Assembly (NCBI GenBank): GCA_030153805.1
Contig: JASKLG010000009.1
Location: 1-38,078 of the forward strand
Length of the DNA stretch: 38,078 nucleotides
Origin: Bacillota bacterium
Lineage (GTDB): Bacteria > Bacillota > DTU030 > DUMP01
Direction: 5' to 3'
Below the pieces are notes generated by a model, which did no database searches, was not told the DNA's origin, and saw only the letters and a list, made by a program, of their open reading frames with translations. The number at the start of each line of letters is the position of its first letter. The first letter of the stretch is position 1. Made by a program: the position numbers and the translations under genes. This document shows positions 1,367 to 29,011 of this stretch, piece after piece.

Positions 1367-1396
1367 AAAGCCCGGAGCCAGTTCCGGGCTTTCTTA
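1367..1396. terminator. Bidirectional terminator between hisC and the desulfurase gene
   Basis: A 10-bp stem with arms AAAGCCCGGA (1367-1376) and TCCGGGCTTT (1383-1392) encloses a six-base loop. It has U-rich flanks in both directions and sits between two convergent genes, ending right at the desulfurase stop codon. Confidence 0.85.
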
Positions 1397-2545
1397 GTAC
1401 TCGCGCGCCAGAGCCTGTAGAGCTTCCACGGCAGTAAGCACCTCTTCTTCCGTATTGAAGTAGCCGAAACTGAACCGCAGGGTGCCGGCCGGGAAAGTAC
1501 CGATCGTTTTATGGGCTAAAGGAGAGCAGTGCAGGCCGGAGCGTACCATAATCCCGTATTCGGCATCCAAACGCGCCGCCACCTCCCCTAAATCCGCACC
1601 GTCCAGGGTTAAAGAAACTGTGGCTACCCGCTCATCCATCTGTTCGGGTCCGTACACCCGCACGCCGGGAATACCTTCGATGCCGGCCAAAAAAAGCCTG
1701 GTTAGATTCTGTTCATGTTCCCGGATCTTCTCAAGCCCGGTGGCGGTCACAAACTGAATCCCGGCGCCTAGACCGGCAATGCCTACCGTGTTGGCCGTGC
1801 CTGCTTCAAATTTATCCGGTAGGAAGTCAGGCTGTTCTCCCAGATCGGATTTACTGCCCGTTCCCCCCTGTACGAACGGCACCAGGCGTTCAGCAGCCCG
1901 CTCGCTGATGACAAAACCTCCCGTCCCGGGCGGGCCGTAGAGCGCCTTATGTCCGGTAAAAGCGAGGAAATCGAGGCCGAGTGCCTGAAAATCGATGTCG
2001 AGCACCCCGGCCGTCTGCGCCGTATCGAGGACGAAAAAGGCCTCCGATTCCCGGAGAACGGCCGCGACTTCCGCTACAGGTAGAATCGTTCCCGTCACGT
2101 TAGAGGCATGGGTGAGGACGACCAGCTTGGTGTTTTCTCTCAGCGCCCGGCGCACATCTTCGGGATCCAGTCTTCCGGCGCGGTCGCAGGGAACGATAGA
2201 AAGTTTAACCCCATAATGTTTTTCCATAAACCTAAGGGGCCTCACCACAGAATTGTGCTCCATGCTGCTTAAAATCACGTGATCCCCCGGAGAAAGAAGT
2301 CCCTTGATGGCAAAATTCAAGGCGTAGGTAACATTGGGCGTAAAAATCACCTGTTTTTCCGACGGGGCATTGAACAAAGCCTTGAGCCGCTCCCTGGCCG
2401 CGAAGACAATCCGGCCGGCCTCGATGCTGCCGGCGTAGCCACCCCGCCCGGGGTTACACCCTACCTGCTTAAGGTAGTGTTCCATGGCCTTCCAGGTAAT
2501 TTCAGGTTTGGGATGCGATGTGGCCGCATTGTCAAAATAAGGCAC
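1394..2545 (-). CDS. Cysteine desulfurase-like class V aminotransferase, selenium-locus type
   Basis: This PLP enzyme of the SufS/CsdA group probably removes S (or Se) from cysteine (or selenocysteine) and holds it as a persulfide (or selenide) on a cysteine. It has 383 residues. The PLP lysine is K200 in TGHK, followed by the GPPGTGG loop. The catalytic cysteine is C340 in SGLHCSPLAH. It matches the subfamily that is commonly linked to YedE, YedF/TusA and DUF3343 genes in selenium-using anaerobes, and those genes sit just across the divergent intergenic region. The start is GTG, supported by an AGGAGG site eight bases upstream. Immediately upstream are remnants of a LysR gene, whose apparent tail overlaps this start. 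A role in general Fe-S cluster supply is the main alternative, but the neighbours favour Se/S handling. Confidence 0.85.
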   Translation of the reverse strand: MPYFDNAATSHPKPEITWKAMEHYLKQVGCNPGRGGYAGSIEAGRIVFAARERLKALFNAPSEKQVIFTPNVTYALNFAIKGLLSPGDHVILSSMEHNSVVRPLRFMEKHYGVKLSIVPCDRAGRLDPEDVRRALRENTKLVVLTHASNVTGTILPVAEVAAVLRESEAFFVLDTAQTAGVLDIDFQALGLDFLAFTGHKALYGPPGTGGFVISERAAERLVPFVQGGTGSKSDLGEQPDFLPDKFEAGTANTVGIAGLGAGIQFVTATGLEKIREHEQNLTRLFLAGIEGIPGVRVYGPEQMDERVATVSLTLDGADLGEVAARLDAEYGIMVRSGLHCSPLAHKTIGTFPAGTLRFSFGYFNTEEEVLTAVEALQALAREY

Positions 2546-2756
2546 CTACTTTTCCTCCTCTTCGGCTCTTTTTATCAGGTCCTGGGGTCGGTACGAGTTT
2601 CAGCCCCAACTCTTTCAAAGCTGCCATCCGGCATGTTACCGCCGGCGGCGAGACATACGGCACTCTGCCTGAATTCGTAACCATACCGTGCAGGACGACT
2701 TCAAGGAAAACCTCTAACTGTCTTAGCTCTACCTGGCTTCCCTGCATTTTTCTCAA
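2532..2756 (-). pseudogene. Degenerate LysR-type regulator (HTH remnant)
   Basis: A 74-codon minus-strand frame contains the start of a LysR helix-turn-helix. ELRQLEVFLEVV is followed by a garbled stretch, then YVSPPAV and AALKELGLKL. Compared with intact LysR proteins, the FTxAA helix is scrambled, one residue is missing before ELGLKL, and everything after the HTH is lost. In another frame, the bases just before the desulfurase start read DLIKRAEEEEK followed by a stop, which could be the old C-terminus. A LysR regulator is a known companion of selenium-metabolism loci, so this is probably an internally deleted, dead copy of that regulator. There is no good ribosome binding site. It could still encode a short peptide, but not a functional LysR protein. 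Confidence 0.6.
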
Positions 2757-2841
2757 GATCAGTATCTTAAAGAGACCAAATTATGTCAACGAGTATAATG
2801 ATTTTTTTAGCAGTTAATTCGGCTGGATTAATAACTTATAT

Positions 2842-2871
2842 TTGTCGCTCCTTCCCAGATTACTCTACAAT
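2842..2871 (+). promoter_or_regulatory. Candidate promoter of the yedE operon
   Basis: TTGTCG (2842-2847) and TACAAT (2866-2871) are separated by 18 bases, and yedE starts at 2916. A second TATAAT at 2888-2893 is also present but lies very close to the ribosome binding site. Which one is used cannot be decided from sequence. Confidence 0.4.
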
Positions 2872-2915
2872 AAGATAAGGTGGTTGTTATAATCTTCACG
2901 AGGAGGCATGCGACC

Positions 2916-4010
2916 GTGAACGAAAAAAAACTGGTGATCGCTGCAGGAGCAGCCATCGGTCTCTTAAGCGTACTTCTTGTAAAATTCGGTAACCCGCCTA
3001 ACATGGGGGTTTGTGTGGCTTGCTTCATCCGTGATATTGCTGGTGCCCTTGGGCTCCACCGGGCCGAAACGGTCCAGTATCTCCGCCCGGAAATACCGGG
3101 TTTTATTCTCGGGTCTGCCCTTATCGCCCTCGCCACCGGTGAATTCCGTGCCCGAGGCGGCTCCGCGCCCATCCAACGCTTTTTCTTGGGCTTTTTTGTT
3201 ATGATAGGAGCTCTCGTCTTTCTCGGCTGCCCGCTACGTATGGTGCTCAGGCTGGCCGCAGGGGACTTAAACGCCCTGGTCGCCCTATTCGGTTTTGCCG
3301 CCGGTATTTGGGTAGGACTCCTCTACATAAAAAACGGATTTTCCCTGGGTAAAGCACAGCGTCTCGCACCGTCAAACGGTTTCATTCTGCCGGGAGTAGC
3401 CATGGCGCTTTTACTTCTACTCTTGGTTAAACCTGCTTTCATCTTTTTCAGTGACAAGGGTCCTGGCGCATCCCACGCCCCTTTTTATCTCTCCCTCTTT
3501 GCCGGCCTCGTCATCGGCGCCCTGGCCCAGCGCTCGCGTCTTTGTATGGCCGGAGGCATCCGTGATCTTTTCCTCATTGGTGACCCGCATCTTTTTATAG
3601 GTTTTGTCGCCATTTTTGTAGTTGCCCTGGGACTCAATCTAACCGTCGGCCAGTTTAAGCTTGGGTTTTTAGAACAGCCCATCGCCCACAGCGATGCTCT
3701 CTGGAACTTCCTCGGCATGTTTCTCGCAGGATACGGGTCGGTACTCTTGGGCGGTTGCCCGCTCCGCCAGTGCATCCTGGCCGGTGAGGGCGATACCGAT
3801 GCCGCACTAACCTTTCTTGGCATGCTCACAGGCGCCGCCTTTGCCCACAATTTTTCTCTGGCCGCCTCACCCAGCGGGGTCCCCTTAAGCGGGAAAGTAG
3901 CGGTGATCATCGGCCTTTTGGTCGTCACCGCCATTGGCTACTTCAACCTACCTCAATATGTCCAGGCCACCAGCCGAAAGGAGCGTTCGACTTATGGCAC
4001 ACAGAGTTGA
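2916..4010 (+). CDS. yedE: YedE-related selenium-metabolism membrane protein
   Basis: This is a polytopic inner-membrane protein of the YeeE/YedE family, thought to move sulfur or selenium compounds across the membrane. The 364-residue product has about ten hydrophobic segments and two internally related halves. Conserved cysteine motifs are visible: ACFIRD near the N-terminus, GCPLRM, RLCMAGGIRD and GGCPLRQCILAGEGDTDA. This pattern matches the subfamily tied to selenium use rather than thiosulfate-uptake YeeE. I chose the GTG at 2916 because AGGAGG lies nine bases upstream; an in-frame ATG at 2880 has no such site. The gene overlaps the following tusA by 17 bases, so the two are probably translated together. 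The substrate is not established and is inferred from neighbours. Confidence 0.82.
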   Translation: MNEKKLVIAAGAAIGLLSVLLVKFGNPPNMGVCVACFIRDIAGALGLHRAETVQYLRPEIPGFILGSALIALATGEFRARGGSAPIQRFFLGFFVMIGALVFLGCPLRMVLRLAAGDLNALVALFGFAAGIWVGLLYIKNGFSLGKAQRLAPSNGFILPGVAMALLLLLLVKPAFIFFSDKGPGASHAPFYLSLFAGLVIGALAQRSRLCMAGGIRDLFLIGDPHLFIGFVAIFVVALGLNLTVGQFKLGFLEQPIAHSDALWNFLGMFLAGYGSVLLGGCPLRQCILAGEGDTDAALTFLGMLTGAAFAHNFSLAASPSGVPLSGKVAVIIGLLVVTAIGYFNLPQYVQATSRKERSTYGTQS

Positions 4011-4215
4011 TGCGCGCGGGCTCTCCTGCCCCCAGCCGGTAGTCCTCACAAAAAAAGCGCTGGCCGAACTTCAGGCAGGCCAGCTGGAAGTTGTGGTAGA
4101 TAATCCGGCCGCCCGGGACAACGTGCTCCGCTTTGCCCGGAGCGCCGGCTGTCAGGTTGAGCTCAGCACGGCAGGCGATGACTACCTTATCCGCATCACC
4201 AAGAAGCAGGTGTAA
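3994..4215 (+). CDS. TusA/SirA-family sulfur (selenium) carrier
   Basis: This small cytoplasmic carrier receives sulfur or selenium as a persulfide on a single cysteine. The 73-residue product is a complete TusA domain with the CPQP motif, C12 being the acceptor. It lies within a selenium-type locus, where the usual partner is YedF, a TusA domain fused to a DsrE-like domain. Here only the TusA half is present. The ATG start is supported by GAAAGGAG about ten bases upstream and it overlaps the end of yedE; the DUF3343 gene starts two bases after its stop. Likely partners are the desulfurase encoded on the opposite strand and the DUF3343 protein. Confidence 0.85.
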   Translation: MAHRVDARGLSCPQPVVLTKKALAELQAGQLEVVVDNPAARDNVLRFARSAGCQVELSTAGDDYLIRITKKQV

Positions 4216-4217
4216 AC

Positions 4218-4481
4218 ATGAAGAGTCTCGCCCAACCTTACTTGGTTATTACCTTCCCCAACACCCATGCGGCCCTCAAGTTCGACAGCGCTTTCAAAGA
4301 AAAAGGTACGGCCAAGCTGGTACCCGTGCCGAGGGAGATAAGCTCCAGCTGTGGGCTCGCTGCGCGCCTGCCCGATCAGGACGCAGAGAAACTGATCGCC
4401 ACCCTGACCACTTTGGACGTGGACTACGATGGAATCTATCGTGTGGCACCCGGGGAAAAACCCAAGTGCCTGACACCTTAA
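4218..4481 (+). CDS. DUF3343 putative Se/S carrier-like protein
   Basis: This 87-residue cytoplasmic protein belongs to the DUF3343 family, which is often found beside desulfurase, TusA/YedF and YedE genes and has been proposed to carry sulfur or selenium. The conserved block VPVPREISSSCGLAARL contains the likely active cysteine, C45, in a CGL motif. Its start is two bases after the tusA stop, so it is the last gene of a yedE-tusA-DUF3343 operon, which is followed by a terminator. The biochemical role of the family is not firmly proven. Confidence 0.85.
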   Translation: MKSLAQPYLVITFPNTHAALKFDSAFKEKGTAKLVPVPREISSSCGLAARLPDQDAEKLIATLTTLDVDYDGIYRVAPGEKPKCLTP

Positions 4482-6277: not shown

Positions 6278-6999
6278 GGCTGTGCCTCCTTTTCTACCGG
6301 ACGGGCAAACCGGAATTTTTCACCGCCGACGTACGCCGGCAGGATCAGTTTGTCTTTCTTTTCGATTTGTACCTGGATGCCCCAGAACTGGACCGTTTCT
6401 AAGATTCCGCCCCGCATCTTAATGGCCGTTTCTAAACCGTCCGGGTCGCCGATAGCTTCCACCACATAAGGAGGCGCAATTCGCGTGTTGTTTACGGAAA
6501 TAGTCGGGCCGGCGCAGCGGATTTCACTCAGGGCCACGATACGCTGGCCGTTGACCGTAATGGCCTCTGCACCTGCCGCCTTCAGCTCGTTGACGAGCTT
6601 GAGCAGGTCCTCGTCGTGAATAAGGAACAGGTTAGGGTCCTGTCCGGGCTGGGCAACCCGGGTACTGTCGTTCAGGGTCACCACCAGGCCCGGGCCCTCT
6701 ACCGGCGTGAGGCCGGCAATGAGCCGTGCCTTTTTAAGTTCTTCCTGCATACCCGCCGTAACGCTTTTTTCTTGTCGCATCACCTCATCTAATTGGGCGG
6801 TAAGCTTATTGACCTGGGCACGCAGGGCGTCCCGCTCAGACTCGGCCTGCTTGAGCAGGTTCGCCATCTCTTCGAGCCGCTTGGTTGGCAGGTCGTTTCT
6901 TAGGCTGGCCTGCGTGCGGATCTGGGCAGTTAAGATTACCCCGAGAAGAACACAAATGAGAGTAATCCAAATTTGCGAGATGCGCTTCATGGTCTTCAC
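6274..6999 (-). CDS. DUF881 family membrane-anchored coiled-coil protein
   Basis: This 241-residue protein has one N-terminal membrane segment (about residues 8-25), then a coiled coil (about 38-90), then a globular DUF881 domain. The last carries recognisable blocks such as GPGLVVTLND and AGAEAITVNGQRI. The family (YlxW/YlxX in Bacillus) sits with ftsQ and sbp in dcw clusters and is presumed to act near the division site; its mechanism is unknown. The GTG at 6999 and the ATG at 6990 are both possible starts; a GGGGGTG block is better spaced for the ATG. It overlaps sbp by four bases. Only one DUF881 gene is present, whereas relatives often have two. Confidence 0.85.
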   Translation of the reverse strand: MKTMKRISQIWITLICVLLGVILTAQIRTQASLRNDLPTKRLEEMANLLKQAESERDALRAQVNKLTAQLDEVMRQEKSVTAGMQEELKKARLIAGLTPVEGPGLVVTLNDSTRVAQPGQDPNLFLIHDEDLLKLVNELKAAGAEAITVNGQRIVALSEIRCAGPTISVNNTRIAPPYVVEAIGDPDGLETAIKMRGGILETVQFWGIQVQIEKKDKLILPAYVGGEKFRFARPVEKEAQP

Positions 7000-12812: not shown

Positions 12813-14179
12813 GCCGATTCCCTCCCCAGTTCGGCTACTGCCGCTTTGAAGGCGCGCCCGCGCTCTTCATAGTTGGCAAACATATCAAAACTCGCACAGG
12901 CAGGAGAAAGAAGCACTGTATCCCCAGGCCGGGCCAGGGTACGGGCCAGCCGCACGGCCGCGTTCAGGGACTCGACCTCGTGTACGGCCGTAAATCCCCC
13001 CGCCCGAAGCGCCTGGCGAAACTTCGGGACGGCCTCTCCCAAAAGCACCACCGCCCGGCAGCGGGCCTTAATCACCTCCACCAGACCGGCAAGATCAGTG
13101 CCCTTGTCGCGCCCGCCGGCGATAAGAACGATAGGTGGCGGAAAGGCCTCTAGGGCCTTGATGGCTGCGTCCGGATTGGTCCCTTTGGAGTCGTTTACGT
13201 AACGCACACCTTCGATGGTGGCCACATACTCACAGCGGTGTTCTACACCGGTAAAGGACTTGAGGACGTGGGTAATGGTTGTAATCTCGGCGCCGGCAGC
13301 ACACGCGAGGAGAGCCGTGGCCAGGGCATTTTCCAGGTTGTGCACCCCGGGAATTCCCAGCTCTTCTACCCGGCAGAGGATTTCCCGTTTTCCCTGCCAG
13401 CCCAAAACAAGCCGCCCCTCCTCTACCCACGCCCCTTCGCTTAGGGGCTGCCGGCGGCTGAAGAAGAGCACCCTGCTTTTCGCAAGATCGGCCAGGGAAC
13501 GGGTGGGGCCGTCGTCGGCGTTTAGTACCAGGAAGTCCTCCGGACCCTGGTTGGCGAACACCCGGGCCTTAGCCGCACGGTAGGCGGCGAAGCTGCCGTG
13601 CCGGTCAAGATGATCTTCGCTCAGGTTGAGGACGGCGCTGATGCGGGGGTGGAAGCGCTCGGTGCGGACCAGTTGGAAGCTGGAAACCTCAGCCACCACC
13701 CAGGTGCCGGGTGCGAGGTCGGCAACAGCCCGGCTAAGGGGGACGCCGATATTTCCGGCGACCACACTTGGTAGGCCGGCCTCCCTGAGCGCCCGGCCCA
13801 CCCAGCTGGTAGTAGTAGTTTTTCCGTTAGACCCGGTAATAGCGACATACGGTCCCCGGTAAAGGCGCCCGGCAAGCTCCAGCTCACCGATGACTGGTAT
13901 GTGTCGCCGGTCGGCTTCGGCTAGAAGGGGTATGGTGTCCGGTACGCCGGGGCTTACGACGATAAAGTCGATTCCGTTGAGCAGCGAAAGCGGGTGCTCC
14001 CCGAGAACCAGTTCGACCCCCAGGTCGCTGAGCGTCTGAACCTCAGGCACGAAGGCAATTTCCGAACGGGCGTCGGTAGCCACCACCTGCGCTCCGTGCC
14101 GGGCCAGAACCTCCGCGGCGGCGGTGCCGCTCCGGGCAAGTCCCACCACCAGAACGCGTTTACCTCTATATTCCTCCAC
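12809..14179 (-). CDS. murD: UDP-N-acetylmuramoyl-L-alanine--D-glutamate ligase (MurD)
   Basis: MurD adds D-glutamate to UDP-MurNAc-L-Ala. From the GTG at 14179 the product has 456 residues, starting VEEYRGKRVLVVGLARSG, with the ATP loop GSNGKTTTT at about 116-124. I chose this GTG because an AAGGGGG site lies about eight bases upstream; the open frame runs back over the mraY end to 14302 and that extra part is not conserved-looking. GTG at 14185 is a close alternative. It follows mraY after 32 bases and overlaps ftsW by four bases. Confidence 0.93.
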   Translation of the reverse strand: MEEYRGKRVLVVGLARSGTAAAEVLARHGAQVVATDARSEIAFVPEVQTLSDLGVELVLGEHPLSLLNGIDFIVVSPGVPDTIPLLAEADRRHIPVIGELELAGRLYRGPYVAITGSNGKTTTTSWVGRALREAGLPSVVAGNIGVPLSRAVADLAPGTWVVAEVSSFQLVRTERFHPRISAVLNLSEDHLDRHGSFAAYRAAKARVFANQGPEDFLVLNADDGPTRSLADLAKSRVLFFSRRQPLSEGAWVEEGRLVLGWQGKREILCRVEELGIPGVHNLENALATALLACAAGAEITTITHVLKSFTGVEHRCEYVATIEGVRYVNDSKGTNPDAAIKALEAFPPPIVLIAGGRDKGTDLAGLVEVIKARCRAVVLLGEAVPKFRQALRAGGFTAVHEVESLNAAVRLARTLARPGDTVLLSPACASFDMFANYEERGRAFKAAVAELGRESA

Positions 14180-14211
14180 AAGCACACCCCCTTTGCAGCT
14201 TAAGGCCGTGT

Positions 14212-15171
14212 TCAAGCCCCCATATACCACAGCGCCAAACCGAAGGAGGCAAAAGCCGCCCCGGCCAGCCAAAAACGCCGAACTACTACCGGTTCCGGCC
14301 AACCTCCCAGTTCAAAGTGATGATGCAGTGGGCTCATGCGGAAGATGCGCCTCCCTGTGAGACGAAAGTAAACCACCTGCATAATCACAGAAAGCGTCTC
14401 CAGCACATACACGCCCCCAATTACGGCCAGCCAGATCTCCGTTTTTGTAAGCACAGAGGTGGCCGCCAGCCCCGCCCCTAGGGCCAGAGAACCGGTGTCT
14501 CCCATGAAGATTTGGGCCGGGTAAGAATTAAACCAGAGAAATCCAAAGCAGGCGCCTGCAAAGGCCGCCGTAAAGACGGCCAACCCTGGACTCTGCTCCA
14601 GGGCGATGAAAGTGTAGGCCAGGAAGGCAATATTGGCGGTACCGGCGGCCAGGCCGTCTAAGCCGTCGGTAAGGTTGACCGCGTTGGCGGCACCTACCAC
14701 CACAAAGATGACGAAAGGAATGTACCAAAAGCCGAGGTGCCATGTTCCTATAAACGGAAGGCGCACCGCATCACCGAGGGCTGGATTGAAGTAGACCCAT
14801 GCACCTAGAAGGCCGGCCAGGATTACCTGAGCCGCCAACTTCTCCCTAGCCTTAAGGCCCAAAGACCTGCGGCGCACAGCCTTGCGCGCGTCATCTTCCA
14901 GCCCGATGAAGGCATACCCCAAAGTAAGGCCTAAGGCCATTAGCGTACCCGGCGCGCCGCGGGTAAAGAGGAGGGCGGAAGCGGCAGTGGCCCCAACCAA
15001 TACCAAGCCTCCCATGGTAGGTGTGCCCGCTTTTACCTGGTGCCGCGCCGGCCCTTGACTGCGGATGGTCTGGCCGTACTTTAGGCGTCGGAGGTAGCTG
15101 ATAAGAGGTGGAGTCAAAGTCAGAGTGAGAGCCAGGCTTAAGACCGCAGCTCCAAGGATACGGCTCAACAT
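14212..15171 (-). CDS. mraY: Phospho-MurNAc-pentapeptide transferase (MraY)
   Basis: MraY is the integral membrane enzyme that moves phospho-MurNAc-pentapeptide from UDP to undecaprenyl phosphate, making lipid I. The 319-residue product has about ten membrane segments. Family motifs are GTPTMGG, the metal-binding NAVNLTDGLDGLA region, GDTGSLALG and the C-terminal SPLHHHFE. Its start touches the murF stop, so the two are translationally coupled. Confidence 0.95.
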   Translation of the reverse strand: MLSRILGAAVLSLALTLTLTPPLISYLRRLKYGQTIRSQGPARHQVKAGTPTMGGLVLVGATAASALLFTRGAPGTLMALGLTLGYAFIGLEDDARKAVRRRSLGLKAREKLAAQVILAGLLGAWVYFNPALGDAVRLPFIGTWHLGFWYIPFVIFVVVGAANAVNLTDGLDGLAAGTANIAFLAYTFIALEQSPGLAVFTAAFAGACFGFLWFNSYPAQIFMGDTGSLALGAGLAATSVLTKTEIWLAVIGGVYVLETLSVIMQVVYFRLTGRRIFRMSPLHHHFELGGWPEPVVVRRFWLAGAAFASFGLALWYMGA

Positions 15172-28829: not shown

Positions 28830-28863
28830 GGCACTTGTGAGGCCTCACGGTCCCACAAGTGCC
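28830..28863. repeat. Inverted repeat between the CDF and PPDK_N genes
   Basis: Perfect 10-bp arms GGCACTTGTG (28830-28839) and CACAAGTGCC (28854-28863) enclose 14 bases, and GTGAGGCCTCAC is a second palindrome nested across the junction. The two structures compete for the same bases. No T-run follows on either strand. It could be an operator for the divergent genes. Confidence 0.5.
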
Positions 28864-29011
28864 CGCGTCACTTGCTGCACCCCAGGTGCCCGGCTTCACC
28901 AACCGTGCGGTCGGCCGCCTGATCCGGCAACATTATAACATACAGCCTCCCGTCCCATCAATGACAGCCCTGCGCCGCCGGCAACAAGTTTTTGGTTTTA
29001 TGAGGAAGGCC

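Follow-up and report, generated by a model that had tools for sequence, protein, structure and literature searches.

What has become of the regulator at a selenium locus whose neighbouring genes are intact? The window, by which we mean the whole 38,078-nucleotide stretch of Bacillota DNA analysed here, carries in its first six kilobases hisC (plus strand), a cysteine desulfurase gene (minus strand), yedE, a SirA/TusA-like gene and a DUF3343-type gene (all plus strand) and a gene for an htpX-like protease (minus strand). Between the desulfurase gene and yedE lies a 74-codon open frame without internal stop (2532-2756, minus strand), and the coordinates of the features discussed are collected in Table 1. 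The same adjacent gene set makes up the yedE - SirA/yedF - DUF3343 - Sec lyase cluster described by Lin et al. (2015; PMC5322559), where a LysR_Se subfamily was proposed with selenophosphate as its suggested signal, YedE was proposed to be a selenium transporter or exporter, and DUF3343 a carrier. The statement in the first-pass annotation that selenium-metabolism loci come with a LysR regulator is in line with that source, and according to PMC9312934 LysR_Se/HrsM was later verified. Against the SclA model (NF040779) the desulfurase of the window scores 429 bits, below the cut-off of 525, and it is possibly a selenocysteine lyase. A search of viral contigs with this desulfurase returned nothing informative.

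Table 1. Features of the yedE-desulfurase locus in the window, and of the RNA element on contig C5 of the same genome
Feature	Coordinates	Strand	Basis
Cysteine desulfurase family protein, intact	1394..2545	-	TIGR01977 482.9 bits, above cut-off; pN/pS 0.14 vs G001
3' end of lysR, reads DLIKRAEEEEK-stop	2546..2581	-	28/36 bases identical to G001 lysR end
Deletion junction	2582..2594	-	two collinear blastn blocks; exact breakpoints below resolution
Decayed 5' end of lysR (HTH), former start to about codon 48	2595..2732	-	homology to G001 lysR start; PF00126
Promoter-like site of former lysR, TTGACA-17-GATACT	2761..2789	-	promoter scan 10/12
AT-rich element ATTAAT...TATTTG (yedE direction)	2827..2844		alignment of six intergenic regions; conserved in family
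Promoter-like site of yedE, TTGTCG-18-TACAAT	2842..2871	+	scan; -10 column conserved in family
Second yedE promoter-like site, TCTACA-18-TATAAT	2864-2893	+	scan
yedE, putative selenium transporter, intact	2916..4010	+	TIGR04112 507.6 bits; PF04143; pN/pS 0.15
SirA/TusA-like protein	3994..4215	+	PF01206 E=1.7e-21; YedF TIGR03527 positions 1-69 of 194 only
DUF3343-type putative Se/S carrier	4218..4481	+	PF11823 E=1.2e-19
RNA element	L136 1498-1892 (G000:C5 ~13871-14265)	-	homologues L135, L138-L144

The open frame between the desulfurase gene and yedE

Taken alone, the profile similarity of this frame amounts to a weak match. The Pfam HTH_1 profile (PF00126) aligns over its positions 1-43 of 60 with E=6.7e-5 and 23.2 bits, under the family cut-off of 26.6, and the best NCBIfam match, NF040786 (LysR_Sec_metab), aligns over profile positions 2-48 with E=5e-4 and 19.1 bits, which falls far below the whole-protein cut-off of 250 bits. 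The identity of the remnant is settled by its place and its flanking DNA, both of which correspond to those of the intact lysR in G001, a genome of the same genus, and this correspondence rules out a chance similarity of the HTH frame. By blastn, the window and the yedE-lysR-desulfurase interval of G001 share two collinear blocks: the left one, matching at 68% over 414 aligned positions, runs from the start of yedE to about LysR codon 48, and the right one (82% over 198) runs from the last LysR codons into the desulfurase gene. The gap between the blocks measures 14 bases in the window against 733 in G001, which puts the net loss at 719, and the C-terminal substrate-binding domain (PF03466) present in the G001 copy is absent from the window. 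On the desulfurase side of the junction the similarity to the G001 lysR end is sharply bounded, the count given in Table 1 for the bases just before the desulfurase GTG dropping to 2/12 in the next block upstream. This retained tail is in a different frame from the HTH part; it holds the desulfurase ribosome site GAGGAGG, and its TAG stop directly precedes the desulfurase GTG.

The HTH part is itself eroded: (i) the former start codon is now GTA (2732-2730), where relatives carry GTG or ATG; (ii) one glutamate codon present in the relatives has been deleted inside the helix-turn-helix; (iii) 14 of the 28 residues that are invariant in five relatives have changed, the other 14 being kept, and where G001 has the stretch TEAAKTLYIS the window has TNSGRVPYVS; and (iv) a conserved leucine has become a proline. 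The disabling lesions are therefore the internal deletion, the lost start codon, the lost codon and the change of frame between the two parts. On these points the first-pass annotation read the locus well: the readable start of a LysR HTH, the one scrambled helix, the single missing residue, the loss of the rest of the protein and the LysR-like tail in another frame were all borne out.

Rates of change point in the same direction and have to be read with care. Against G001, the remnant gives a pN/pS of 0.48, with differences distributed over the codon positions as 20/19/28 and 28/58 amino acids identical; the corresponding pN/pS for the desulfurase, yedE, hisC, htpX, DUF3343 and a full-length LysR gene encoded on contig C5 of the same assembly is 0.13-0.22, and that for the HTH of this C5 paralogue 0.02, while amino-acid identity reaches 317/363 for YedE, 330/383 for the desulfurase and 58/60 for the paralogue HTH. 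The yedE-type LysR evolves fast even when intact, since its HTHs are 57-76% identical to each other in the family and give pairwise pN/pS of 0.21-0.30, and our verdict thus rests on the lesions and not on rate alone: decay is proved by the deletion together with the missing start and the missing HTH codon, and not by low HTH identity in itself.

Two readings would keep a working protein. The frame could encode a short DNA-binding protein derived from LysR, for instance a shortened repressor acting on the divergent promoters; it is open throughout, an ATG or TTG in the same frame closely precedes it, and part of the recognition-helix sequence can still be recognised. LysR dimers, however, require the linker and the effector domain, both of which are absent from the remnant, and the changes to half of the invariant residues, to the HTH codon, to the leucine and to the start, together with the many second-position differences, are unlike what protein constraint leaves behind, making a functional product highly improbable. 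Alternatively, the gene might be whole in the real genome and broken only by assembly or binning, as this species is represented by a single genome, whose assembly is fragmented (107 contigs, 90% complete). The junction nevertheless lies inside a contig, and a simple misassembly would not alter half of the conserved residues, the start and an HTH codon while the flanking genes stand at 79-87% amino-acid identity; we regard the chance of such an artefact as negligible.

The remnant is thus almost certainly what is left of the selenium-associated lysR of NF040786 type that is linked to yedE, now a pseudogene, internally deleted and with its HTH eroded, and the process is ordinary pseudogenisation with loss of a regulator. 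The internal deletion (net ~719 bases relative to G001) joined the HTH region out of frame to the last 11 codons, and substitutions together with the codon loss eroded the HTH; only the order of these events is inferred. No functional regulator would be expected from the remnant site. Set beside LysR_Se (LysR_Sec_metab, with HrsM as its archaeal counterpart), to whose profile the remnant still aligns, the gene of the window is dead, having lost ~720 bases, its start codon and HTH residues. The internal deletion, relaxed substitution and intact neighbours are those of bacterial regulator pseudogenes generally; what sets this one apart is that both of its ends are kept and that they coincide with a divergent promoter region and a ribosome site.

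The interval in related genomes

We compared the genome of the window (G000) with two others of the same genus (G001 and G002) and with five further members of the family (G003-G007). The yedE-desulfurase interval is readable in four of these seven relatives (G001, G003, G006 and G007), and the intact copy that the first-pass annotation had envisaged there is present in 4/4: a full LysR gene, divergent from yedE and abutting the desulfurase gene downstream. These slot orthologues score 290-302 bits for NF040786 (cut-off 250). In G004 a contig ends inside the slot LysR, the fragment being open over 112 codons, and in G005 the contig stops just before yedE. The order in G001 (htpX, DUF3343, yedF, yedE / lysR, desulfurase ... 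hisC) is that of the window.

The other member of the genus presents a different picture. G002 is without the whole lysR-yedE-yedF-DUF3343 block and retains the desulfurase gene beside htpX (G002:C2:43785-43899, L130), where homology to the desulfurase starts ~115 bases after the htpX end and extends only 16 bases upstream of the desulfurase start. A genome search found no yedE match anywhere in G002, and a DUF3343-like match on its contig C8 sits in a different context. One small genus hence shows the selenium locus in three conditions: with its regulator whole (G001), with the regulator gutted and the transporter kept (the window), and reduced to the desulfurase after loss of the entire module (G002).

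A LysR gene between yedE and the desulfurase gene was found in genomes of this family and at one other locus (L086), in contrast to most other yedE loci surveyed. LysR was detected in 7/50 yedE loci (L086, L089, L090, L101, L114, L115 and L121), lying between the two genes in L086 alone, although many of the surveyed loci are short and absence of LysR from them is weak evidence. Among 13 further chosen loci, three (G009, G010 and G012) have a LysR gene on the far side of the desulfurase gene. As a separate observation, G007 carries, beside an intact yedE, dispersed pieces of this gene at C53:2522-3039 and C136:2666-3006, some of them interrupted by in-frame stops; these are perhaps a decayed second yedE.

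Control of the locus after the loss

The hexamers and spacing of the former lysR promoter are identical in G001, G003, G004, G006 and G007. The same hexamer pair and spacing stand ahead of the desulfurase gene in a Thermoanaerobacterales assembly (L081), with no LysR detected between them, and that locus may offer a natural parallel for a promoter serving the desulfurase directly, whether LysR was lost there or never present, both histories being compatible with a yedE tree. The AT-rich element upstream of yedE may have bound the lost regulator, and a dyad search of the intergenic region for a LysR box found no site common to all six sequences.

Both ends of lysR probably persist because the neighbours need them, as their conservation suggests: the divergent promoter region belongs to the 5' end, and the ribosome site of the desulfurase gene to the 3' end. 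Since the lysR promoter and this ribosome site are preserved, the former lysR promoter probably now drives the desulfurase gene directly, the dead gene forming the leader of the transcript. A more elaborate version would make the dead gene a control element in cis, in which the inherited promoter and ribosome site and a ~200-base lysR leader tune the desulfurase and the paralogous LysR_Se reads the old site; such tuning might perhaps operate through translation of the short frame that overlaps the desulfurase start. We consider this version improbable.

If lysR is a pseudogene, is the locus still regulated? The C5 paralogue is the single NF040786 match of the genome at E<=0.001 (C5:12815-13693, 304.9 bits); it is intact and heads a lysR-selD-yedF group. 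Being the only such gene left, and with the AT-rich element and the promoters of the window locus conserved, it could control the yedE and desulfurase promoters in trans, so that regulation persists. It is, however, just ~36% identical to the yedE-type LysR of G001, inspection by eye revealed no evident copy of the yedE-side element upstream of it, and both types of LysR, the yedE-linked and the C5-type, coexist in G001, G003, G006 and G007, which suggests separate duties; control in trans is accordingly conceivable but on the unlikely side. The chances that the locus has become constitutive, its only local regulator lost without replacement, seem to us evenly balanced. The regulator is destroyed, a near-consensus promoter is retained, and yedE loci elsewhere have LysR on the far side of the desulfurase gene or, in many cases, none detected nearby; on the other side, an AT-rich element that served no protein would hardly be expected to stay conserved, although the element overlaps the yedE promoter. 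The first-pass annotation had taken the loss of a selenium-type LysR to suggest that the locus is unregulated or under another control. The loss itself stands; the suggestion goes further than the evidence, as the promoter, the AT-rich element and the intact paralogue all remain and are compatible with either outcome. A response of yedE and the desulfurase gene to selenium, if this organism retains one, would have to run through the paralogous LysR_Se.

Loss of selenium use was considered as a cause and rejected, tRNA-Sec and selD both being present. The tRNA-Sec gene is intact at C5:36362-36451 (minus strand) of 36456, which leaves 5 bases to the end of the contig. Neither selA nor selB turned up in the G000 assembly; in G001 the two genes adjoin tRNA-Sec, so a missing contig is probably the simpler reading. 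The selD gene of G000 (L062, reverse strand, ~6284-6290) reads ASG-TGA-GAKLGP, with an in-frame TGA in a motif that we take to be the catalytic site, and its product is a probable selenocysteine protein.

A putative structured RNA and an apparently exchanged stretch on contig C5

An Rfam scan of the window found a NiCo (nickel/cobalt) riboswitch alone, at 28846-28936 on the minus strand (47 bits; gathering score, 37). Outside the window, a conserved RNA-like structured element of ~300-395 bases lies upstream of the C5-type lysR_Se-selD-yedF group in 8/8 genomes of the family (G000-G007). It is closed by a long stem and contains a U run, and its homologues in G014 and G016 adjoin unrelated genes. 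The structure alignment left out G002, which is nearly identical to G000 there, and in G005 the contig ends inside the following LysR gene. The predicted fold on nine sequences has 116 pairs, 46 of them with compensatory changes. Paired cells reach 96.4% against 87.2% in shuffles and <=47.5% in slid controls, and 0/500 shuffles reach any of the measures; the fold was derived from the same alignment used for the pairing count, which tilts the comparison in its favour.

This element had no Rfam match at E<=1 in 9 loci, and raising the limit to E=10 in 6 loci gave low-scoring matches only, all far under the cut-offs. 6S RNA was ruled out as its identity, the 6S RNA of the genome sitting elsewhere, and ARAGORN found no tmRNA there. 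A model of the first 105 positions has matches at E<=1e-4 in 103/299 genomes of the phylum, usually a single one in each, and the matches adjoin varied genes in the 12 loci opened; the exact 3' motif was not found in 11/12 of these, whose 3' ends are thus unconfirmed. A narrow literature search turned up no paper on the element, and we make no claim that it is unpublished. The element has the look of an independent non-coding RNA family that Rfam lacks, and it is probably of wider interest than the lysR remnant.

The same contig shows a second peculiarity. Between G000:C5 and G002:C45 (L171, L172; ~12.5-20 kb) identity rises to 97.5-100% between about 13 and 19 kb of C5, compared with ~82-90% in the left flank, 85% near 21 kb and 84-91% in the other contigs compared. 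This stretch, which covers the intact lysR_Se and the RNA element, looks like the product of a recent homologous exchange between the G000 and G002 lineages.
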